Source of the DNA: Ulota crispa | Taxonomy: Eukaryota; Streptophyta; Bryopsida; Orthotrichales; Orthotrichaceae | Direction of reading: 5' to 3' | DNA length: 64,000 bases | Assembly: GCA_963920765.1 (NCBI GenBank) | Contig: OY987251.1 | Coordinates: forward strand, 8,869,219 to 8,933,218 | Part shown: positions 12,796 to 42,681 of the stretch, piece after piece | Layout: the number at the start of each line of letters is the position of its first letter | Position numbering within the stretch: position 1 is the first letter of the stretch | Notes under the pieces: generated by a model | What the model was told of the DNA's origin: nothing | The model's database searches: none | Seen by the model: the letters and a program-made list of their open reading frames with translations, nothing else | Program-made: the position numbers and the translations under genes

Positions 12796-15700
12796 TCACT
12801 TCCGAGAGAGCAGCATTGTGTTCTGCTTCACCAGCAATTCTCTGAGCTTCTTCGTCAACCCTGCATCACTACCTAAATATTCCTCAAATGACCTACGTAG
12901 CTTATGCAGAGTAGCAGAGCTCTTGTCACTAGTCCAGTTCAGCAATGTCTCGAAAAAATTCTGCCATAAATTCACGTTCCAATACCTGCAACCACGTTTC
13001 CCTCACTTAGATCTATTCTCGAGTTACCAAATCACATCGTCTATTATAGCAGAGAACATTTACTGATTTAACATAGAACTCAAACACACGTTTAAAAAGG
13101 TTACTTTAAAATAAAGTTAAAAATGCATGCTTCAAAGACGAGTCAAACTCAAGAGATGGAGTTTGATCTTTTACCTTTTGTAAGGTGCTTTAGGGCGGTT
13201 AGTGACCTGGGAGGTCGCATTAGTTGAATGTTTCTCTATTTCCATATAATTACCGTGGAGGAGACAATGGGCCACCCCACATAAACCATACGTATCAACC
13301 TGTCAAAACGCCATAATGGTAACTCAGCATGAAAATCCCAAACTAATCATGCTGGCATTGGAGAATTCAGATCATACTGTTTAAACTCATGCTTAAGAAA
13401 GCGAGAAAGTCCACTTTAGAAGCCAATTTGCTTGGAAAACTGGATCTTTTCTCCACTCAAATATTCTCGGTTTGTCATGGAAATTGTGTCAATGAAATTG
13501 AGATTACATGATGATTGGTTGATTCAACCCTAGCCACAGGCAGACACCATACCTCCCCTCTCCCATTGCAAACCCCATGCACAGACATTTACACTTGTTC
13601 TAGAAGTGGCGTTCGGTTTTCTAGCTCCAAGTTTTGCAATCTCTTCCCTTGTTGATGATTATTCCAAAATATGTCTTTTTTGTTGAAAATGTAGGGTTTG
13701 ACTTGGTCTTACTATTTTACGTTGTATTCATTTCCTTGAAGCTTTGTGAATGATTTATTTCAAATTTGAAAGCAGTAACACTGGCCAAGGGGCACCTTCT
13801 CCAAATTAGACAAATGTATAATATGCCTATTTCTGGTATATTTAGGCACCATACTGTAACAAGAATAAGGCATTGTGCCCAAAGATACTGTCAAAACACC
13901 TTACAGAATGATATTTCACGTGATTTGTTATAATAAACCCCAGAACTAGGCTCGGAATGCAAGTGGAATTAAACATAATAAGAATCTATCTTTTAAAATT
14001 CCTAATGTGACGAGGACTGCCAAAGGGCTTAAAAAGAACCAGCGCTGGCTGGCGTTGGTTGTACCTGAAAAGTCCATGGTTTCTTCTCAATCATTTCTGT
14101 GCACCGGAATCCATCAGTCTTGCTGTCCCCTACGAATTCAGCTCCCTCGGCAAAAAGGGAGAGATCAATGCTGCGGCCCCAATCTATAAGGCACACGCCC
14201 TGTATAAAATAAACACGGAAGTGTTAAATGAGGTACTTGTAGCTTACACTATCATTCAAACAACTAGAGCAAAACTCAATGTTAAGATCAGAAAAATTGC
14301 AAAAGCGGTCTCACCTGCTGCTTCCAAGCGCCAGGCTTATCAGCAGCCCAAAATCCCAGATGCACACTGCAAAAAAATACCAGAATATCCACATGCTCAC
14401 AATTAGCTACCTCCGTTTAACTTGCTTTGGTTGTTTCCATATCTACAGAAGTTGATATAAACTATTTGAGAGGCTTCAAGAGTGGTACATAATGTAATAG
14501 AAGAAAGAAATCAGATCGTACGTACTTGCATAACAGAGATACATTTGAAAGTTACTACAATTAAGCTTAAATTTCAGAACTACGAACTCAAAATAGGCCT
14601 ACATGTTTCTATAGAAAATGGTGGGAAAGAAGGAGCTGGACCTGCTGCTGCGTATGAGCAAATTGTCAGGCTTAAAGTCTCCATGAATAAGACCAACTTT
14701 GTGCAAATCTTCCAGCATACGTAACATTTCAATAGTATAGAAAATACAGAGAGGCTCATCCATTCGTTGGCCCTTGCTCAGATACGAATTGATGACATCC
14801 TGCATTTCAGCAGATATTGTTAGTACTGCCTTCTCAAACACATGAAACCTTACTGGGATTACGTACCTTCAGCTCTCTGAAAATGAAAATCTATTTTTTT
14901 TCACAAGTATCGTGTAAATACAGTTATTTGTACCTGAAGAGTTCCATACTGACCAAAGTCGCACTCCATAAAGCTACAGTCGGTGAAAATGTGTATGTTT
15001 TGAGCACATCCATATGCAAATCTCTACAACAGAGTACAAGTTTGAACGGAGTCAGCTCTACATTTGAAAAAAAATCTCCAATAACCTCGTATTTAATCAT
15101 AGCATGCTCTAACAAAAAGGCTCCAGGTTTGGGAAAGACAATAGTATTTGCACATGGTGGTGAAATGATTATAATACCTTCTCAGAAGGAATCCGCATGT
15201 CAAGCTGACGATATATATAGAATTCCCAGGGGCAGGGCGGCTTCTGAACCTGAGGCAACAATCGTTTATAAGGTAAGAGAATGTAATGCTATGTACACCC
15301 TATAAAGGCATTTTGTACTTCAGATTTGCAGAACGAGACACAGCTGAAGGTCACATTGAAATCTAGCAAAAATTTATCTTACTTTGAGGACTACACGACG
15401 ATTGTCTCCAGTCTTGTTGAGAGCCTCAGCAAGGTAGACTTGGGCAAAAGCACCGTGACCTGTAGATGCCTTCAACTGATACTTGCTGCTGCCTACACCA
15501 CTTAGTAACAATTACGGGATAGATTAATACCAAGAAGAGCAAGAGAAAAATTCTTATTTCCAAAAAAAAAAATCTGTCACTTCCACAGCCACACCATATC
15601 CAACATTATGTCTCTTCTCTCATTGAGAAGAGACTGCTACAGAGTCAATTAATAAGCCTTACCCAGCTCTAATGGTTTGTTTTTCACGCCAGATTTGGTG

Positions 15701-18700
15701 GAAGCCAAAGAGGCCAGGGTCACTCTTCCAGAATATTTTTTAGAGCTATAAATATACCCCTGCACAGAAATAAAACGGAAGGTAAGTTCCGCTATAAACG
15801 AGGGGGGGTTTAGACTGCAAAAACTACAGAAACCCCCCTTCATCACGCCATGGAAACACTGCATAATCCATGAACATCCCCTAGCAGAAAATTCAAGCTC
15901 GACTTTGTTACACTCGGTGATGGATTTCATCGATTCACCTTGTATTTTGATAGGGGTGGGTTCAGATCTTTCAAGAAATTTGATGTCAGATCCTGATCCC
16001 ATGGATAGATCTGTCCTCCTGGTTTGCTATGCTCCGTTCTTGAAAGTGTAGGCTCCAAAATATTTCTGCTCAGCAATTTAAAATATAAATGACTTTTTTT
16101 GTACTCATTTATTTTCTAACAAAATATGCACTAATCGTAACTGGTTCTAATGATATAAAACTAGACCTATCCAAATAATATTCTCCATCAAACATGCAAC
16201 AGAACTGGTCACTTTTAAACCATAAAACCTTGGCAATTTGAAGATTGACACGGGTTTTCCCTTACCTTGGAACAAACGATTCTCCATTTGACGAAGGGAC
16301 GTTTTTCATGGGACCCGAGCCTAGTGCTGGAGAATATTGGGTAGGGTGTCGCTTCATCCTCATAGCTAATGATCTTTCCACCATAGGAGTCCCTCTCTCC
16401 TTGCCTTCATTTTCTGTAAATGGTACCTTTTGCTTCTTCTTCTCAACCTCCTCATCTTCATCACTAATATAAATACATTGAGTGTCCTTCACGCTCGAGG
16501 ACCAACTGGAACGTTTCCGACTCGGAATTGCTCTAACATTCCCATCATCATACGAACTATCTTCTTTAATGAACCTTCTCTTCGCGTTGCTAAAATCCTG
16601 TGTTACACCAACTTCAGCCTTCAAGCTCTCAACAATGGCATTGCTTCTGATTTCCTTCGTCGCCCACTGCTTAACTGTTACAGGCTTCTGATTAGGAGAC
16701 GTGCCCTGCAACGAAGATGTTCCATTCCGAAGCACCTGAATCCCTAGCACGTCACCTGCAACCTCTCTAGGCTGTTGCTTTGTTGCAGAGGTCGTAACTT
16801 TCAAATCAGCTCTAGCATTCAAAGTCCTCGACGCTGAATCGCTAGGAGAAGCAGTGCTTGGACTATTCTGGACAAAGCCAACAGGAGACCTGAGACTCCC
16901 ATTCTGAGAGGGTGTACCTTCCAGAGATCTAATATAAGACACGCTGCTCTGTTTTGGAGTCTGTACTCGCGGTCTAGGAGCAGGAGATCCACTGAACATC
17001 GCCATGACATCATCTGTTACCGATGTGGTGACATCGTCAAGCACCTCAGCACGTTCTACACTCTTGGTATTAAGCTCTGCTCCCACGTAAGCCTTTCCAG
17101 TGTCAGGCAGGTTCCGAGGTGAACTGAACATCGCCATGATGTCATCAGTCACAAACTTAGTGTTCGTGGTGATGTCGTCACTCTGGGCAGCTCGTCCTAC
17201 CCCTGCATTGCTCTCGTTTATACACGAAACTCCAGTGTAGAATACGTCCTGACGAGCTGGTGGAAGGCTCGCATATTGCTCCTGGGGTGGTCTTGACTCA
17301 GTTTGCAATGTGGGCTCACCAAACATTGCCAATATATCATCTGTCACGGATTTGGTAACAATGCTGACATCGTCAAGCAAATCGTTGTGAGGAGACGCTT
17401 GTTCCACCCCTGCCTCGTTTGCAAATGCTCCGTTGGAAAATCCCTCTTTATGTGCTGATGAAGGAACGACGTACTCCTGTGCCGGTGTATTATAATGCTG
17501 CATTGTAGCAGGTCTCATTGACATATTGTCTGCATAACCATTTCTGGCGCTCATGGGCTGTGCTGGCGTGAACTTGATGTCTGGAGCGCCAGGGAAGTAC
17601 ACGTTTGGGGTGGCATCTTCCTGACCTGTCAATTTGGAGTGCGTGATGTTCAGTACCGCGCCAGGCCTGTTAGGAGTCTGATGCACCTCGTTTGAAATTA
17701 AATGGGTCGAGTTTGGAGTATCCCGCTCGTTGCTGGAGACCAGAGGAGTAGTGTATGTAGCAGCAGAAGGCAACTGAGCAGGCTTCCTTTGAATCCAGGG
17801 ACGAGCTCTTTCTTCCTCAAAACTGGACTCTGCTTTTAGTTCTGTGCCCTCGTAGATCTTGGATCCAATACGCACAGGTGCTGCACAAAACATGCCAACA
17901 TCCAAAGATTTAATGACAATGGCAACCATATAAAAATTTAAAATTTGAGGTAATTCACTTCGATAGTCAATTATTGTTAGGACGAGTTGAAGAACTACTT
18001 GGAGGCTCAACTGTGCCACTGATACTACCCTGGTCCCATCTTTAAAAAAACTTAGAAAAGCTCACTCACCAGGATCACCGTAACCGCCGCCGATACTGTC
18101 TTGCATGTCGAGAAGAGGGTCTTCTCTTGCATTGCTTTGAAATAAAGGCAATATTGGCAAACCTGAGCGATTTCCAGAAACATTAGGTCGAAACATCCTT
18201 TCTTGCTATATGTTAAGAATGATTGCTGAATGTAGGCAGCAGCAACGAGATGAAAAATCGTGATATTGAATTAAAAATGTAACAACAAGCCTTTACCTTC
18301 GATGTCATAATTATCAGCTAAAGGCCTCATCGCTCCTCCACTCAGCCTGGCTAAAAAGGCTTTCTGCTCTTGCTCCTGATGAAAAACATATACATATTTT
18401 CAGTTTCTATAGAATGGTAATGGAATATATCAGGCAGCAAACATTACAGAGAACATGACTGATAAACGCATCACGCATTAAAAATGACATGTTCCTCAGG
18501 AAAAAGCATTTGGATTAGTTGTGAAGAGGAACCTGTCGAATTTTACGCTTTTGGCGAGCAACCATTCGACTACGAAAGCTGTTGTGCATGGCTATCATCC
18601 TTTCCAGTGGTTGTGCTCCCCTGCAGTGGTGATCACAAGTGTGATTTTCATAACCAGCTCAAATGGCTAAAAAAACACTGCTAAATGTGCTAAAAACTCA

Positions 18701-20400
18701 AATTTAACACTGTGATATTGACATACTTTGCAGCAATAAGAAGATATTGGTGGAATTTTTTTTGAATCTAGCCACATTTATGAACACTAGCTTGCACCCA
18801 TGGCCCAGATTCAAGTCTGTGTTGCACAGCTTGATTGATCCAGAAAGCCTGAAAGGACTATAAGAAGCAACTACTCTACAACTGGCTCTAGTACGGTAGC
18901 GCTAGCTCAGTATTTTGAATAAGGATCTACTCAAACTTGCTCACGTTCACTAGAAAAGTAGTTCTGGCAATAAAATAACCAAACAAAAGCATCAAACAAG
19001 ATTAAGAGTTTATATCTATTACCTAGATATGCCAATTTGAAAGACGTAATCCGCTTTAGCATAGTCTCTAGAAGACTCCAATAACATAGCATAAGCTTCA
19101 TAGAACAGTCCATGCTCCAGTCCGATCCCATTTGCTTCCAAGAAGGGGAAAATACCTCCCCGCTCCAAGCAGCAATCTGCCTGTATACAATCCCCTGTGC
19201 GTGTTACTGGACCATAGCTCCAAGGAAAAAGAGTACATTCATATTTTCTTCACCTCCTAAAGAAGACCAGGAGGCCCAAACCGAGCCTGGTGTCTAATAA
19301 CCAGTTTTGAATAGGTCATACGGACACTTCTTTCAATCCAATTGTAGTTCTACATTGACTAACACATACAAAGTTCTTCACTACTTGCAGTGGTACAAAA
19401 TTTGACTCTGCCTGAATCGTACTTCTCACTTATAGAAACCATTAATCATTATTCCCTTAATAGATAACGAGGAGTTGGCGCTCCTTGAGAGCACTGCAAC
19501 CATAAAAAGAAGAAATCCAACAAGGCAGCAAAACCTTACATATTGTATCCAGACTTTCAGAAAACGAAGATCTGACTTATATCTCTTGTCCGGGACGAAA
19601 TTCTTGGCGGCAAGTTCCAGCACTTCCTGCAAGACCACCTTCACACTACCTGGCGGAGTCATCTCCTTCAACCACTTTATACACCTGCAGAGTAAGACTT
19701 AGAATTAGAACACAAGCAAATCTATACAGCTATCTCCTACACATACAGGATTCTTCACTGATTCAAGCGACATAAATTTTGACCACATTTTGAATTACAG
19801 TGTTCACGGGATAACTGATCAAAATGGTCATTCTTTCATAACCATGGTTCGTTGGACCAGTAAGCATTCTCGTAATACTGAACACAGGATGCACTACAAA
19901 GGGGAAATGCCATACTACTCAAGAACCTCTTGAAAAGAAAGCTACGCCCTTTTTTCAATTACAAATTGGAGTAAAACAGAAACATACCTCAAATAGGGTT
20001 CAAGGGGATCATTGCCGACGTAGTTCTGAATGAAATCAAGTATCATCCTGCAAACAACCAAGCACGTGAGTTGTTTTAGATGACACAGACATTCCAATTC
20101 AGGACGAGTGTTGCTCAATGGATAAATGACCACTCCCTGAAATGTACACCTCTAATACATTCACTCCATAGAACATACACACACTAGCTGTCTCCTGAGC
20201 AGCACTACGCCCTCTCGTCTTGTAAACTACGTTCAACATGTTGCCCTTCTCATGTACTCTCACATTTAGGCATTACTAAGAAATGGCTATAACTCCGACA
20301 TTTTTGTACCCTAACTTCGCAAAGAAGTAAAGAGATCGAACCTGCGCAGGTCGTCATCACGGCTTTCGGAAACACCATTTCCGTATGTATTCATAGCCAT
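12796..20400 (-). CDS. BUB1: BUB1 spindle-checkpoint Ser/Thr kinase (18 exons)
   Basis: Kinetochore kinase of the spindle assembly checkpoint, about 1,147 residues. Exons (-): 20400-20342, 20047-19988, 19684-19540, 19180-19023, 18620-18533, 18375-18297, 18201-18070, 17880-16266, 16018-15939, 15759-15663, 15492-15383, 15249-15178, 15023-14934, 14799-14642, 14366-14315, 14199-14065, 13299-13175, 12985-12796. Residues ~20-190 are the Mad3/BUB1 TPR region ('YVGNDPLEPYLR', 'FLEANGIGLEHGLFYEAYA', 'GAQPLERM'). Exon 8 is a long disordered linker with three CD1-like motifs (see separate entry). The kinase (~839-1147) has a 'TGHGAFAQVYLAE' glycine loop, 'VVLK', 'IHGDFKPDN' (catalytic Asp ~969) and DWG in place of DFG. 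All junctions keep frame except exon 9 to 10, which is off by one base, so that boundary is uncertain. I did not see a clear GLEBS or KEN motif. The start at 20400 is the first ATG; an upstream ATG exon cannot be excluded. Confidence 0.93.
16976..17376 (-). repeat. Three CD1-like motif repeats inside BUB1 exon 8
   Basis: Read on the minus strand, three motifs of about 20 residues follow one another: 'DDVSIVTKSVTDDILAMFGE' (17376-17317), 'DDITTNTKFVTDDIMAMFSS' (17182-17120) and 'DDVTTSVTDDVMAMFSG' (17041-16990). The first matches the T-K-x5-I-x2-MF-x2-PTL pattern of conserved domain 1 of animal and fungal BUB1, which binds Mad1 after Mps1 phosphorylation. The third has lost the TK pair. Approximate residues 409-431, 474-495 and 520-541. 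Confidence 0.8.
18640..18727 (-). repeat. Dispersed repeat in BUB1 intron 4
   Basis: The minus strand text 'GTGTTAAATTTGA', 'TTTAGCAGTGTTT' and 'GAGCTGGTTATG' recurs in CARA intron 9 (36756-36848) and downstream of the PPR gene (39187-39260). Ends are not clear, so the family cannot be classified. Confidence 0.5.
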
Positions 20401-21766: not shown

Positions 21767-22647
21767 AGAGCTTAAACTGAATTTTGGGGAGTTGAATCTT
21801 CTTGAAATGTTGTTCAGTACATTTTTCTTGACATACAAGAAGAATTGGCATCTAATCCAAGTTGTTTCATATTTTTTGGAACTTTGTGGAATTAGTTATG
21901 AAATTTTGAACTAGAAAGGTCATAGGGCTCTAAAATGGAGCACCTCCTCAAAAATATATCACGCGTGTATTGTTGTAGGGCTATGAAAACAACACGTACA
22001 AACATACTCCCTTTGTCCCAATATAAAGCTCCAAAAAACTGCACCATGAGGGATTAACTATATTTTTAGTCATTATGCTAGTGACAAATGCATTCTAGAA
22101 TCAATATACCACCTACCAAATATTTGTAAAATCTCCAATTTTCATGTTGCCGATTAGACACCCAAATTCCATGCAAAAAGTACCATATTTGTGCATAGTT
22201 TGTGAAGGCTACCAACTCCTCATTATTTTAGTCTTTCTTCTAGTGACACATGCGTTCTAGAATCAACATATCATCTACCAAATGTGTGCAAAATCTCCAG
22301 CTTTGATGTTGTTGTTTGAGCACCCAAATTCCATGCAAAATGTACCATATTTGTGCATGTTGCTAGCTCCTCATTATTTATGATTTCAAGACTAGTAGCA
22401 ACAATGGTACCTCATATGGGCAAGGCCAAGCTTGTTAGGAGACGAGTGCTCTTTAATTGCTTAACTTGCCCCCATGAGATCATTGACATGACAAACGCTT
22501 TTTCAACAATTGAAATTAGCAAAAGGGAGCTTTTTAGTGGGACAAGAACTATGCCTAATTTGGAGCTTTATATTGGGACAGAGGGAATAATGAATTTGAG
22601 AATGTGCTTCATTTTAGAGCTTGCTCCAAAATTAGTGCCTCCTACCT
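21767..22647 (+). mobile_element. MITE family A, copy 2, interrupted by a Stowaway-like element
   Basis: The left half (21767-22006) shows family A blocks 'CTGAATTTTGGGGAG', 'GGAATTAGTTATGAAATTTTGAA' (partly) and 'CTAAAATGGAGCACCTCCTC'. The right half (22588-22647) resumes with 'TGAATTTGAGAATGTGC' and ends CCTCCTACCT followed by TA. The two halves are separated exactly by the Stowaway-like element 22007-22587, so that element inserted later. Confidence 0.8.
22007..22587 (+). mobile_element. Stowaway-like MITE, copy 1 (nested)
   Basis: Begins CTCCCTTTGTCCC after TA and ends GGGACAGAGGGA followed by ATA. CTCCCTCYGTCCC with a TA target is the classical plant Stowaway (Tc1/mariner) terminus. About 580 bp; the internal GGAGCTTTATA blocks next to each end extend the inverted repeat to about 25 bp. 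Homologous to 34663-35080 and 48952-49538. Confidence 0.85.
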
Positions 22648-28302: not shown

Positions 28303-29180
28303 AATCTAATTATTGTAGAGGTTGATAATTATATTTCATAACTTTCTTCTATGATTTAAGTCCTGAATACAATCTGCTTAGAAATGCATACGTGACAACG
28401 CTTTGAATTTTTTTAGTATCAAGCACTTGAAATTTTCTTTTACAAATTGGATGCGGTAATAACTAAGTATCAAGTTGGAAGAAAAGTCAAATTTTTAATG
28501 TTTTGCCCTTCACAACTCAACAAAGGTAGCCTGTATTGAAATGAGATTTACAGAATTGGAACTTGGAACATGGTGTGATTCCCTTATATTTGATAAGAAA
28601 AAACTTATATGTTTTGCTAGCAAAGTTTACACTCAAAGCTTGTGTTCTAAAGAGCCCTTCTCCATTGAGAACTTGGCCAAATTTCAATATTGAATTTCCC
28701 TTGCGGAAATTCACCATTGATTTGTGATTTGTTGTAACTAATACAAAAATTTGCAATTTATTTTTAAATGGGTTGCATAGCATTCCATTGAAAATGTGTA
28801 TATTATCAATAACCTTGCTGATGTGTATCATGCATTCACTCTAGGTAAAACCTCATTCATGAGACTCTTGTGAAAAGACAATAATTGCACATACCGGTAG
28901 TAAATTTCAACTCATTTAAGATTACTTTGACAATAAAACAATCCTATTCCTTCACTTGTTTTTCTTTTATTTCTTACAAAATATGTTTGCTAATACAAAA
29001 ACATACTTCACTAACCACAATAAAAATTCAACACCTTTATCAACATAGTGCAAATTTGAGCTTTAGCCCAAAATTGCAAAACTCAAAAACAACAAACAAT
29101 TTTATGCTATAAATTTGTTTGTTGTTTCTCAAATTTTCAATTCCGGGGTCAACATGGAAGTTTTCTATTAGTCCATGTAT
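28303..29180. other. No gene recognised
   Basis: AT-rich sequence; short frames without family resemblance. Confidence 0.45.
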
Positions 29181-29346
29181 ATAGTCCTTTTAGGCCAATT
29201 TCACAAATCCAATCATTGCCATGTATGGAAACAACTCATGTAGTATAGTCCTTTTAGGCCAATTTCACAAATCCAATCATTGCCATGTATGGAAACAACT
29301 CATGTAGTATAGTCCTTTTAGGCCAATTTCACAAATCCAATCCTTG
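29181..29346 (+). repeat. Tandem repeat, 64-bp unit, 2.6 copies
   Basis: Units start at 29181, 29245 and 29309 with ATAGTCCTTTTAGGCC. The first two are identical over the full 64 bases and the third matches until about 29342. Identity implies a recent duplication. Confidence 0.95.
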
Positions 29347-31439: not shown

Positions 31440-34400
31440 ATGGCTATGGCGATGGGAGTGCAAGCGGGACTGCAGCCAGTAGGGCTTGTAACAGGAGCTA
31501 GCAAAGGAGATGCTACTAATTCTACTACCCCATCTCTTCACTTGTCTGCGTCTTCTTCTCTTTTCCGTGGACGTCTTCAAGTCGCAACTGTGCTTCCCAA
31601 GCAACAGCAGCAAGTGAGGTCGGTCGCCATACGTTGCGGAGCCGCCACGGTTGTGGACGGTACTACGGCGGCGGCTGGTAATTCATCTGCTACTCATTTA
31701 CTTTTCTAGTGTTCACAAGATTTCCATTCAGTCATAGGGTATCAGGAAGTTTAGGAGTAGATCAGGGAATCTAAGTAGTCTTTGGGGTTCTGCAATTCTA
31801 CCAAGAATTTCAGAGTTTAGGGTTTAAGGTAGGAGGTTCTGAAATGGAGCATTTAAGGGCTGAAACTGAATTTTGGGGAGGTGAAACTTCATGAAATGTT
31901 TTTTCAGTAAATTTTTGAATTTTGAAAGACAAGAGGAATTGGCATCTAACCCAAGTTGTTTCAGATTTTTTGGAACTTTGTGGAATTAGTTATGAAGTTT
32001 TGAAATGGAAAGGCCATAGGTCTCTAAAATGGTGCACCTCCTCAAATGTACATTGTTTGTACATCGTTGAAGGGCTACGAAAGACAACTCAAATGTACAT
32101 TGTTTGTACATCGTTGAAGGGCTACGAAAGACAACTTGTACAAAATGAGTATATTTGAGGAGGTGCACTGTTTTAGAGCATGCACTATTTTAGAACCTCC
32201 TATCTTAAGGTGCGTGGTGCTTTCTTATTGCACATTAAGGTAGGAGGCTCATGAATGGAATATCCAAGGGCTGAAACTGAATTTTGGGGAGGCGAAACTT
32301 CTTAGAATATTTTTTCAGTAAATTTTTCTTGGAAGACAAAGAGGAATTGGCATCTAACCCAAGTTGTTTCATATTTTTTGGAGCTTTGTGGAATTAGTTA
32401 TGAAATTTGAGTTTTAAATGGTATAGGGCTCTACAATGGTCCATCTCCTCAAATGTACATTGTCTGTACATTGTTGAAGCCTATGAAAAACAACATGTAC
32501 AAATATAATACATTTGAGGAGGTGGACTTTTTTTTAGAGCCTGGACGCTTTTAGAACCTCCTACCTTACTTAACTATTCAAGACGACTTTCGAAGTGCAG
32601 TGACGAACAACGACGAAGAGGTTTTAATGATAAATTTTAAACCATGGATTTCGGTGAATTCATTGCAGTGCATGACCACTTGAAATTTTGCTTTTTTTTG
32701 CTTTTTTTTTGCAGTTTTTTTGCATGCTTTTGACTTTTTTGAATTTTTTGATGTTAGCAGCTGCGAAACCTTGGAAAACATCTGATTGTCGACTGGTGCT
32801 AGAGGATGGGTCCGTGTGGCAAGGAAAATCCTTTGGAGCCACTGGCACCCAAGTGGGTGAAGTGGTCTTCAACACTTCATTGACGGGGTATGTCCAGTTC
32901 TGTGCTTTCTACTTTGTCCACCTTGGTAATAGCGTTCTGCTACTAGCGTTGCTTTTCTTTATAAAGCTTTTAAGAAATTGAATCGAAACTGGAGTAATTT
33001 CGTATTTTTCTTGCCTTGTAATTTCTTGTTCTAAAATGGGATTTAGTGGAAGACGACAGTGCTCTTAATATCCGACGGGTGTTTTATTTTTTAATATTTT
33101 GAAATGAATTGGCAGGTATCAAGAAATCCTTACGGATCCAAGCTACGCTGGCCAGTTTGTGCTGATGACTCAACCTCATATTGGCAACACAGGGATAAAC
33201 TTTGGTACGAGTCCAAGTCTTTTTTTCTCAAAGGTTGATTTCAATGGAGAAGTACTGACAGGCTTTTGAGAACATAAATCGCGTTTTCAGTAGTTTCTGT
33301 GAGCTTGTTATGAACCTTTGTGTTTCTAAATGCCTTTATGATCGTTTGTTTGTATTTCTACAGCTTTGTGACGTTAAATACGCATGCAGTGGTGATCCTT
33401 AACACAAAGTTTATGCTCCTTTTTTATGGTTTTTCTTACAGGTGACGAGGAGTCTGACCAGTGCTTCATGGGCGGCTTGGTCATCCGAAGCCTCAGCAAC
33501 ATGTGTGTGAATTTCCTCTTCGCTTTTGAATGTTTGTGTACAAGTAGAATTGGTAAATATAAAACAGCGAACTTTATTGTGTTTGACCAGGGTTAAGTAT
33601 TTGGTGAACAGATCGGACTCATGGGACACGTTTTTCTAAGTTAATCTGATTGAAACGCACGTTCTGATAGCTTTATGTATCATAGATAAAACACACTAAA
33701 ACTTCTGGTTCTTTTTTTACCGTTTTTTTGTCTAAAAGGCCGGTTGTTCGTGGTTCAATCCATGTGACTTATGCTTGAAATATTGGCCTCTATGTTCTGG
33801 ATTAAGGTAACAGTTTGTGTTTTCTACCTTGGATTGCAGTGTTTCAAACTGGCGGTCAGCAGAAACGCTTCCTGAGTACCTGGAGAAGAGGAATGTCATG
33901 GGCATTTGTAAGTATCTACAGACCGAATTGGCTTGGTAACAATTGTGTTGATGATTTCTAGGTACACCCAGATGGATGTGATTTCTCCTCCAATTGACAT
34001 TCTGAATTTAAATTTGTTTTCCTTCTTTGTGGATTTTTTAAAATGCTAGCCTCGTATTCTCATCAGTGACCGCGCTTCTGATTGCAGCTGATATTGACAC
34101 CCGAGCTATCACTAGACGCTTGCGAGAAGTTGGTAGCTTGATTGGAGTTTTGACTACGGACAAATCCAAGACTGATGACGAGCTAATTGAAACGTCTAAA
34201 ACCTGGAATATCGTGGGTGAGAAATCATACCTTTCTGTGAGATATACATGGTTTCACTTTTCTAGTTTTATCAGTACTTGTTTTATTATTCTAGATGTGA
34301 CACTCGGGATTATATGAAGTCTTGAGACTTTGCTTGTATTATGAAGTATATATATTCTATAGAATGCCCGGTTTGCACAGCATTGTGCCATGTTGACCGT

Positions 34401-39617: not shown

Positions 39618-42404
39618 TTACCAATAATCACCGCATGAACAAACCCCGTCCTTAAAATGGTGAAAGCGGTTAGCATCCCTGGCAACGATTTCTCGCCCAA
39701 CGATTCTGGAAATGAACTTTGTTGCAGTGTGGCAATCAGGGCACACACGAAGGTTTTTAAAGATGTGGATAGGCTGTCCCGGGGGAGTGCTGATGAGGCC
39801 GAAGGCAATAGCCAGTCGTTCGCTGTGGTGGCAAAGAGCATGCTCCTTGAGCTCCTCGTCAACATCGTGCAATACAAGTCGAGTGTCTGCAACATATCCT
39901 GCAGTTTTCATCTCCTGCGCTAATCTTTGCAGTTCAGCCAGAATTTGCTCCGATTGAGGGTGCGATTTATCCTCAGCAACAAAAGAATGCACTCGATTGT
40001 CGACCAAAATCCAACTCCGTCCAGGTTCCTTCTTCACCTTTCTATCGTCCATTAACTTCCTCAGTTTTGCAACGCTCTCCCATTCACCAGCTTCTGCGTA
40101 CATGTGTGAGAGAAGCACGTACACACCAGCATCATGGGGTTGATGCCTCAGACATTGCTCTGCTGCACGCTCCGCCATTGCCAAGTTGCCATTAAATTTG
40201 CAGGCACCGAGTAGAGCTCCCCAAATTGGTGCACCTGCTTTGAGCGGCATGTTCTTAATCATGTCTTCTGCCTCCTCTAAGTGGCCTGCCCGGGCAAGAA
40301 GGTCAACCATGCAACCAAAATGCTCCACCGTTGGTTCTAAACCATAATCACGAGATAAAGAAGTAAAATAGGAGCGACCTTGGTCTACCAGCCCTCCATG
40401 GCTACAAGCAGAAAGGACGCCAACAAACGTGAGCTCATCTGGTTGAACGCCTTCTCGCTTCATCTGTTCAAAAACCTTAAGCGCATCTTCACCACTCCCG
40501 TATTGAGAATACCCTCGAATAAGCGCTGTCCATGAGATGACATCACGCTGAACCATATGATCAAAAACATGACGAGCGTCCTTGATGCTCCCACATTTTG
40601 CATACATGTAAATAAGTGCATTTCTAACACCCACGTCATCAGCCACAGAGCCAAGTTGAGAATGAATTCTTTTGCCCCATTCCAAAGCTCCAGAGTTCGC
40701 ACAGGCGTTCAAGATGTTCAAGTACGTGATCTTGTTCGGCTGCAGGCCTTCAGATTGCATTTTGTCAAATGCTGCCAAAGCTTGCTCGCTATGTCCACAA
40801 GCAGCATACCCTCCAATTAAGGTATTCCACGTGATTAAATCTCGTATCATCATGTTGTCAAAAACTTCGTGTGCATCTCTCATGAGTCCACATTTCGCGT
40901 ACATATTTACAAGAGCAGTTCCTACGCGCATGTCAGTGTCGTATCCAGCAGCTGTAATTTGAGCATGCACCTCCTTCCCAACTTGAGAACTGGGAACGGC
41001 ATTCAAGACGCTCAAGTAAGTCACCTTGTCTGGCTTTCGCCCAATTCTCTGCATCTCAAGGAAAATTCGGAATGCTTGTTCACTAAGACCAGAGTCAGCA
41101 TACCCTTTGATCATGGACGTCCATGATATAACATCCCGTTGCATCATTTGGTCAAAAACGTGCCGAGCATCCTCAATGCACCCACATTTGGCGAACATGT
41201 TAATGAAAGCATTCCCCACGCTGACATCGAAAAGAAATCTGGTTTTCTTCGCTTGAGCATAAAGTTCCTTGCCTCGTTCCAAACCCGCTGCGCTGGCACA
41301 GGCATTCAAAATACTCAAGAAAGTGATGCGATTCGGCTCCAACCCTTCATGTTGCATTAAGTTAAACACTTCAAAGGCCTTATCAACATGACCGATTCCT
41401 GCGTAAGCTCCAATCATCATGTTGCATGAACTACTGTCACGTTTGACCAGATTATTGAAAACCTGCCGAGCATCCTCGACACCTCCGCATTTTGCAAATG
41501 CAGTAACAAGAGCGTTCCCGACTTGCACATCAGTGCAATACTGAGAATGGTTGACGTTATCTTGAATCTGCTTCACTCTTTCCAAACTCGTGCATGCGCT
41601 CAGAATAGCTATGTAAGTGACTCCGTCTGGCTTAGCTCCTTCTTGCTGCATTTGTGTGAATAAACTAAAAGCCTCTTCAACATGTCCTCTTGCTCCATAA
41701 CCTCCAATCAACGTAGTCCATGAAATGACATCTCGCTCCACCATCTCGTTAAAAACCGTATGTGCATCCTTCATACTCCCACACTTGGTGTACATGTTAA
41801 TAAATGCATTTCCAATGACAACGTCAGATAGGAGCCCTGATTCGGCAGCCCGGGCATGGAGCTCCTTACCCCATTCCAAACTCGATGAACTGGCTAATGC
41901 TTTTAAAACACTTAAATAGACGAACTTGTTCGGCTCCAATCCTTCGTGTTGCATTTGGCAGAACAACGAATACGCTTCCTTAGTGGAGCCATGATGCGCG
42001 TAGCCTGTGATCATCGCATTCCAGGTAACAGCACTCTTCTTGACGCAGTTGTCAAATACTTGCCGAGCTTCTGTCAGATCTCCACAGTGTGTGTACATCT
42101 TGATAAGAGTGTTCACGACGTAAATATTATGCTGATAGTAATGCTTTACGATATGTTCATGCACGTTCCTGCCCACAGCCAGGTCCTTCACATCGCAGCA
42201 TCGCTTCAACATTTGAACGTAAAATTGAGGCTCTACCCGTTCTCCAATGTTTTGCAGAGTATGCAGCACATCGCTTGCTCCTCTGTGAGGTCCAATGCTA
42301 TGCAGAGACCTTTCGTAAAAGCGCCCTTCCAGAAGTGTAAAAAACGGATTGCTTTTAGCACCATATTTGATGCGAACCGAGTGCTTCCACGAATTCATTG
42401 CCAT
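39618..42404 (-). CDS. PLS-class pentatricopeptide repeat protein with E and DYW domains (RNA editing factor)
   Basis: Uninterrupted 928-codon frame. DYW-PPR proteins bind one organelle transcript site and deaminate a cytidine to uridine in mitochondria or plastids. By eye there are 20 repeats: an opening L-S pair and six P-L-S triplets (for example P 'ITWNTLIGGYAACGHSEQAL', S 'NALIYMYAKCGSIKDARHVF'); two L repeats are about 3 residues short. E1/E2 follow ('PIWGALLGACKFNGN', 'KKEPGRSWI'), then a complete DYW deaminase: 'CHHSERLAIAFGL' (zinc ligand His, catalytic Glu), 'CPDCHTA' and the C-terminus 'CSCGDYW'. Residues 1-35 are rich in basic residues and Ser with few acids, fitting an organelle presequence. 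No intron lies in the coding region. I cannot name the orthologue or the target site. Codon 1 at 42404 is the first ATG of the frame; the next in frame is codon 3. Confidence 0.96.
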   Translation of the reverse strand: MAMNSWKHSVRIKYGAKSNPFFTLLEGRFYERSLHSIGPHRGASDVLHTLQNIGERVEPQFYVQMLKRCCDVKDLAVGRNVHEHIVKHYYQHNIYVVNTLIKMYTHCGDLTEARQVFDNCVKKSAVTWNAMITGYAHHGSTKEAYSLFCQMQHEGLEPNKFVYLSVLKALASSSSLEWGKELHARAAESGLLSDVVIGNAFINMYTKCGSMKDAHTVFNEMVERDVISWTTLIGGYGARGHVEEAFSLFTQMQQEGAKPDGVTYIAILSACTSLERVKQIQDNVNHSQYCTDVQVGNALVTAFAKCGGVEDARQVFNNLVKRDSSSCNMMIGAYAGIGHVDKAFEVFNLMQHEGLEPNRITFLSILNACASAAGLERGKELYAQAKKTRFLFDVSVGNAFINMFAKCGCIEDARHVFDQMMQRDVISWTSMIKGYADSGLSEQAFRIFLEMQRIGRKPDKVTYLSVLNAVPSSQVGKEVHAQITAAGYDTDMRVGTALVNMYAKCGLMRDAHEVFDNMMIRDLITWNTLIGGYAACGHSEQALAAFDKMQSEGLQPNKITYLNILNACANSGALEWGKRIHSQLGSVADDVGVRNALIYMYAKCGSIKDARHVFDHMVQRDVISWTALIRGYSQYGSGEDALKVFEQMKREGVQPDELTFVGVLSACSHGGLVDQGRSYFTSLSRDYGLEPTVEHFGCMVDLLARAGHLEEAEDMIKNMPLKAGAPIWGALLGACKFNGNLAMAERAAEQCLRHQPHDAGVYVLLSHMYAEAGEWESVAKLRKLMDDRKVKKEPGRSWILVDNRVHSFVAEDKSHPQSEQILAELQRLAQEMKTAGYVADTRLVLHDVDEELKEHALCHHSERLAIAFGLISTPPGQPIHIFKNLRVCPDCHTATKFISRIVGREIVARDANRFHHFKDGVCSCGDYW

Positions 42405-42681
42405 TGTTAAGAAACACCCAAACTCAAAGTGCCACTCGATCAGATGATGAGCTGGCGATCGTCCCCTTAATCAATATGTACCTATTGTCAAAAAAATAAA
42501 TTAGAACATGTACCAATACGCTTCAAAACTTTTACATACGATTTTCAAATATAGCATTCTTTGACGCGTTAGAATCCTCAAACATTCGCCAATGAGGACA
42601 CACAAAGAATCAACCAGTCTAATGATAAAGACTATGCTCAACAGCAGAAAACGGCAAACGGCGATCCTGGTTGTATCTTAC

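Follow-up and report, generated by a model that had tools for sequence, protein, structure and literature searches.

A BUB1 gene of the moss Ulota crispa with three linker repeats, two of which resemble the MAD1-docking motif CD1

Results

The window, that is, the whole stretch of 64,000 nucleotides of Ulota crispa DNA that was analysed, contains on its minus strand the coding part of a gene of 18 exons (20400-12796) for a protein of 1163 amino acids. The splice model was made by hand from the DNA alone, using GT..AG introns and a single open frame to the stop. An earlier note on this DNA had called the gene BUB1, and the protein supports that name: it matches Pfam Mad3_BUB1_I (PF08311) over its TPR region (E = 9.3e-34; 116.5 bits, cut-off 31.4) and Pkinase (E = 2.1e-11), and its top match among solved structures is the BUB1 kinase 4qpm (E = 2.9e-50), one of five BUB1 kinase chains that match the C-terminal end with E values from 2.9e-50 to 7.8e-50. 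No KEN box occurs in the 1163 amino acids, which makes this a BUB-type MadBub protein. The gene is thus confirmed as BUB1, with both a TPR region and a BUB1 kinase. Its main parts are as follows.

12796..20400, minus strand: BUB1 gene, coding part, 18 exons, 1163 amino acids (splice model; Pfam; solved-structure search)
19023..20047, minus strand: TPR-coding exons 2-4 (Pfam Mad3_BUB1_I at amino acids 24-139)
16266..17880, minus strand: exon 8, which codes for the long linker joining TPR and kinase and holds GLEBS-like and putative CD1 motifs
17804..17821, minus strand: GLEBS-like core FEEERA (by eye)
12796..15492, minus strand: kinase-coding exons 11-18, catalytic loop HGDFKPDN (Pfam; solved structures)

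By eye, FEEERA resembles the core of GLEBS, the BUB3-binding motif. A GLEBS-like SSFEE core is found in both MadBub genes of this moss (17804-17821 here and L011:5406-6746 in the paralogue described below), whereas the plant proteins BMF1/2/3 are said in a review to be without a canonical GLEBS (PMC11503545). Elsewhere in the window, a 950-residue open frame (39618-42470, minus strand) resembles, by eye, a PPR protein of the DYW type, and tandem repeats lie at 22064-22358 (162 bases), 29174-29346 (64 bases) and 32041-32136 (47 bases), the last two being 98 and 100% matched.

Three repeats in the linker exon

All inside the open exon 8 (17880-16266, minus strand) are three internal repeats with the core VTDD[IV][ML]AMF, exactly as the earlier note had reported them.

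17347-17321, minus strand: core VTDDILAMF, copy 1, amino acids 419-427
17152-17126, minus strand: core VTDDIMAMF, copy 2, amino acids 484-492
17020-16994, minus strand: core VTDDVMAMF, copy 3, amino acids 528-536

In copy 1, VTK stands before the core and GEPTL after it, giving the TK...MF-x2-PTL layout that had been described for this copy; in copy 2, NTK stands before the core. Copy 3 indeed lacks the TK pair, and is also three residues shorter. When the linker was compared with itself, the best 16-residue match had 11 identities, compared with at most nine in 300 shuffled linkers, so the repetition is beyond chance.

The 27-base cores differ pairwise at six, six and four bases, mostly in silent codons, which argues against a single copy having been assembled three times. 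Copies 1 and 2 are separated by five silent changes and one replacing change (P = 0.0013), copies 1 and 3 by three and two (P = 0.03), and copies 2 and 3 by three and one (P = 0.02); these P values are biased favourably, as the test covers the 9-codon core, which was chosen for its protein conservation, with the spacers outside it. The mostly silent changes hint that copy 3 may be under constraint as well. A degenerate DNA pattern of the motif has six matches in 274.8 Mb, namely the three exon 8 repeats and three elsewhere, and the latter were taken as chance because a reversed control pattern had four matches. By eye, one of the three lies in a frame resembling another enzyme, and no BUB1 was seen among the frames around the other two.

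Likeness of the repeats to human CD1

The BUB1 peptide of crystal structure 7B1F was used as the human CD1 query, slid ungapped over all 1163 residues in lengths of 24, 19, 15 and 12 residues, with 5000 shuffles of the linker as background. The repeats in the register of this query are listed here.

17309..17365, minus strand: putative CD1 copy 1, amino acids 413-431, SIVTKSVTDDILAMFGEPT; S413 at the Thr461 position, Asp411 at -2
17114..17170, minus strand: putative CD1 copy 2, amino acids 478-496, TTNTKFVTDDIMAMFSSPR; T478 at the Thr461 position, Asp476 at -2
16982..17038, minus strand: CD1-related copy 3, amino acids 522-540, DDVTTSVTDDVMAMFSGSP; without TK, three residues shorter

With 19 residues, copy 2 ranks first of all offsets in the protein (score 33, P = 0.0006) and copy 1 second (score 30, P = 0.0016), followed by an offset inside the kinase with a score of 18; another shuffle seed gave P values of 0.0008 and 0.0030 for copies 2 and 1. 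The same two copies are again on top with 24 residues (P = 0.019 and 0.026), and the 15-residue query gave P values of 0.0028 and 0.027. The 12-residue helix core by itself scores weaker (P = 0.024 for copy 2, 0.34 for copy 1 and 0.70 for copy 3), which indicates that much of the match comes from the N-terminal S/T-x-x-T-K part. Of 5000 permuted human queries, 0.02% attain a score of 33, and the reversed human query reaches 25.

Copy 3 does not match human CD1 in either comparison: in the ungapped register its score with 19 residues is 7 (P = 0.99), which is background, and the helix core is no better. The CD1 likeness claimed for all three repeats thus holds for copies 1 and 2 in the register that places the phospho-site, with copy 1 falling short of significance when the helix core is taken alone, and fails for copy 3. 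Searches of solved structures with copy 1, with the whole of exon 8 and with a three-copy profile returned no CD1 match at E values up to 10, and Pfam had no match in exon 8. We count the structure searches as a miss; the CD1 motif is short for searches of this kind.

Phospho-site register and the acid at -2

In human BUB1, phosphorylated Thr461 contacts Mad1 Arg617 and caps the helix, with Val462, His463 and Thr464 following (PMC8391104). The threonine of the TK pair pointed out in the earlier note is the equivalent of Thr464, three residues after the Mad1-contacting phospho-site, and the pair corresponds to human Thr464-Lys465. At the place of Thr461, copy 1 has S413 and copy 2 has T478, each a Ser or Thr, and both are predicted to be phosphorylated. 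In the human protein a phosphate on Thr464 is reported to reduce the affinity (PMC8391104), so the kept TK threonine could serve as an off-switch.

Human BUB1 also needs Ile471 and Met474-Phe475-Gln476 (PMC5472792), and copies 1 and 2 have I-x-x-M-F where the human protein has Ile471 and Met474-Phe475. Human Phe470 packs on Mad1 Leu618 (PMC8391104); the Phe470 position is Asp in the moss repeats, and the Leu618 position of the moss MAD1 is Tyr. Two residues before the Thr461 place stands an aspartate, both in the BUB1 repeats (Asp411 in copy 1, Asp476 in copy 2) and in the MAD paralogue (DQT). In human BUB1, CDK1 first phosphorylates Ser459, the residue at -2, and MPS1, which prefers an acid there, then acts on Thr461 (PMC5268738); given this preference, CDK1 priming would probably be unneeded in copies 1 and 2.

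Copy 3 keeps an Asp at -2 in DDVT, before T525, with the stretch from T525 to the helix being three residues shorter. In the ungapped register, one of two possible for this copy, Asp522 takes the Thr461 place, and T461D restores checkpoint activity in human cells (PMC5472792). Copy 3 may be dead, altered or phosphate-independent.

A MAD paralogue and a candidate MAD1 receptor in the genome

A search of the assembly with PF08311 found at least two loci, BUB1 and one on C6 (at least four exon matches; seven candidates scored), the latter being the only other MadBub gene among the loci found. This MAD paralogue was read by eye from the open frames around the locus. The frames contain a KEN motif upstream of the TPR exons, as in MAD-type proteins, the TPR, a GLEBS-like sequence (ESSFEEARLSRW), one CD1 and ABBA-like motifs. 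The open frame L011:5406-6746 holds a single canonical CD1, TINTKECLSDILSMFNRP; the only Pfam match to this frame is insignificant (E = 8.8).

L011:5949-6005 (C6): CD1 of the MAD paralogue, TINTKECLSDILSMFNRPL, with ABBA-like motifs after it

About eight ABBA-like motifs are present in the same frame (FEVFVDD, FEIFNDE, FDVFVDK, FQILQDE, FEIFPDD, LNVFEDT, FQVYADD and FSIFVDD).

The human query matches the paralogue CD1 with a score of 48 (z = 7.2, 0/5000 shuffles). Used in turn as a query on BUB1, the paralogue CD1 scores 44 on copy 2 and 42 on copy 1 (0/5000 shuffles each) and 13 on copy 3 (P = 0.52; helix core, P = 0.07). In this way it links human CD1 to the BUB1 repeats, and with a canonical CD1 in the one gene and CD1 copies in the other, CD1 is kept in both paralogues. 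Two MadBub genes are given for Physcomitrella in the table of a review, which names Pp3c20_12130 of Physcomitrium (PMC11794483), and one has been reported for Marchantia (PMC12526889). Together with the ABBA arrays reported for Physcomitrella MAD (PMC5204127), these gene counts fit a moss as the source of the genome.

A plant-like MAD1 C-terminus, used as a query, matched three collinear exons on C5 (E = 4.9e-5, 0.001 and 0.011).

L018:450-2310 (C5): exons for the MAD1 C-terminus, reading RYR at the RLK place and including KVLH (exons joined by hand)

The joined exons match almost the full human MAD1 C-terminal domain (CTD; E = 3.9e-15). In this alignment the RLK place reads RYR, and the equivalents of Arg617, Phe629 and Arg630 are kept. 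KVLH lies upstream, as in KVLHM, the human MAD2-binding motif (PMC5268738). In human MAD1, R617A and F629A nearly or fully abolish binding and R630A weakens it, with the F629A and L618A proteins perhaps being misfolded (PMC8391104). With these docking residues conserved, a MAD1 compatible with CD1 docking is present in the genome. The C5 gene was missed by searches with both PF05557 and the human MAD1 CTD, and the single match from the latter, on C8 (E = 8.5), looked unlike MAD1 by eye.

Discussion

We give a probability of roughly 0.6 to the reading that copies 1 and 2 are two working CD1s and copy 3 a diverged third, raising the MAD1 capacity or avidity of each BUB1. From sequence comparison we infer MAD1 binding, phosphorylation, a gain in signal and the fate of copy 3 as follows. 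The gene is the BUB-type member of a land-plant MadBub family with two or more genes, and its single ancestral CD1 was presumably duplicated within the linker exon; CD1 (CMI) has been described as an ancestral feature of MadBub proteins (PMC5204127). MPS1 would phosphorylate S413 and T478, the Asp at -2 letting it act without CDK1 priming, and the phosphate would cap the CD1 helix and meet the MAD1 arginine equivalent to Arg617, while the I-x-x-M-F of copies 1 and 2 would pack on the coiled coil and head of MAD1, making each copy a phospho-dependent dock for the MAD1 C-terminal domain. In solution, one human CD1 peptide binds per Mad1 dimer (PMC8391104), so that extra copies need not bring more MAD1, and two docks, here 65 residues apart, could let one BUB1 either seat two MAD1-MAD2 dimers or rebind one. 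More capacity or avidity would mean more signal per BUB1, with copy 3 as a diverged helper or an altered site. The copies may amplify the checkpoint or bind different partners, the two roles that the earlier note had proposed. Several points count against two working CD1s: Phe470 replaced by Asp and Leu618 by Tyr, the Ser at the phospho position of copy 1, blind searches without CD1, the weaker P values with 24 residues, the reversed query at 25 against 33, the helix-core P values of copies 1 and 3, and the bias of the silent-site test.

A single copy might bind MAD1, with the others tolerated as duplications within a disordered linker and copy 3 in visible decay. The shortness of copy 3, its missing TK and its background score against human CD1 would fit this, as would the docking motifs of KNL1 in the same pathway, the MELTs, which amplify and degenerate (PMC7292645); however, copies 1 and 2 score alike with both the human and the paralogue query, and the changed codons of the 9-codon core are mostly silent, copy 3 included, and we hold this explanation to be rather unlikely, although it is the one we take most seriously after two working CD1s. 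We see little chance that the copies are split between partners, some binding MAD1 and others, for example, CDC20 by way of an ABBA-like LAMFGE, or that copy 3 binds MAD1 phosphate-independently through Asp522. As an identity of the repeats ABBA was set aside, except for copy 1, whose LAMFGE fits a loose ABBA pattern. Copies 2 and 3 are without the acidic end of that motif, and the ABBA-like motifs of the MAD paralogue adjoin its CD1 but differ from it by eye. The activity of human T461D (PMC5472792) speaks for a phosphate-independent copy 3, but only in one of its two possible registers.

That the CD1 likeness is chance in a compositionally biased linker, the repeat having an unrelated role, would explain why structure searches with single copies, exon and profile miss CD1 and why the reversed query still reaches 25. 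Against the P values of 0.0006 and 0.0016 with the human query, the 0/5000 with the paralogue CD1, and the occurrence in the same linker of the same protein with a conserved MAD1 receptor, we regard it as very improbable.

Two working CD1s with a diverged third would set this BUB1 apart from the systems described so far in the sources consulted. Human CD1 (7B1F; PMC8391104) and the repeats have in common the layout S/T461-x-x-T-K...I-x-x-M-F-x-x-P in the linker of a BUB1 kinase; the human protein has one CD1, with a CDK1 site at -2 and Phe470, whereas here there are three copies, with Asp at both of these places and, in copy 1, Ser at the phospho place. Yeast Bub1, named in PMC8391104, likewise has one copy. 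Among plant MadBub proteins, Arabidopsis BMF3 has a CD1-like region, like the BUB1 described here, and this region binds MAD1 in yeast two-hybrid (PMC12526889). The Arabidopsis kinase domain is in another paralogue, BMF1, with a very short linker (PMC12595034); in this moss the kinase paralogue has the three copies and the MAD paralogue one. Physcomitrella MAD, also a moss MadBub protein, carries an ABBA array, as the MAD paralogue here does; ABBA motifs bind CDC20 and not MAD1, in contrast to the putative MAD1 docks of BUB1 (PMC5204127). Among the papers listed in the literature searches, none was found to describe a BUB1 with more than one CD1, and the supplement of a survey of 152 MadBub proteins (PMC5204127) may show such a case.

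A parallel is found in the MELT arrays of KNL1/Spc105, which are likewise amplified and partly degenerate docking motifs in the same pathway, and which dock Bub3-Bub1 one step upstream of the BUB1 repeats (PMC7292645). In yeast, the number and strength of MELTs balance checkpoint strength against responsiveness, a balance that the authors propose to drive amplification with degeneration (PMC7292645). As land-plant KNL1 is said in a review to be without MELT repeats (PMC11794483), a bold extension is that checkpoint gain has shifted from KNL1 to BUB1. MAD1 docks would then have been multiplied on BUB1 and CDC20 docks on MAD, the encoded Asp would replace the CDK1 priming phosphate, leaving the switch to MPS1 alone, and MAD1 would be held near by a third CD1 that may be phosphate-independent. 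We consider this whole scheme unlikely and offer it as speculation.

For the question of what determines checkpoint strength, a BUB1 that naturally carries two or three CD1s would put the MELT-type trade to the test one step later in the pathway. With it, control by MPS1 could also be told apart from priming by CDK1. Should Physcomitrium share the array, such a test would be feasible in a haploid, readily edited plant.
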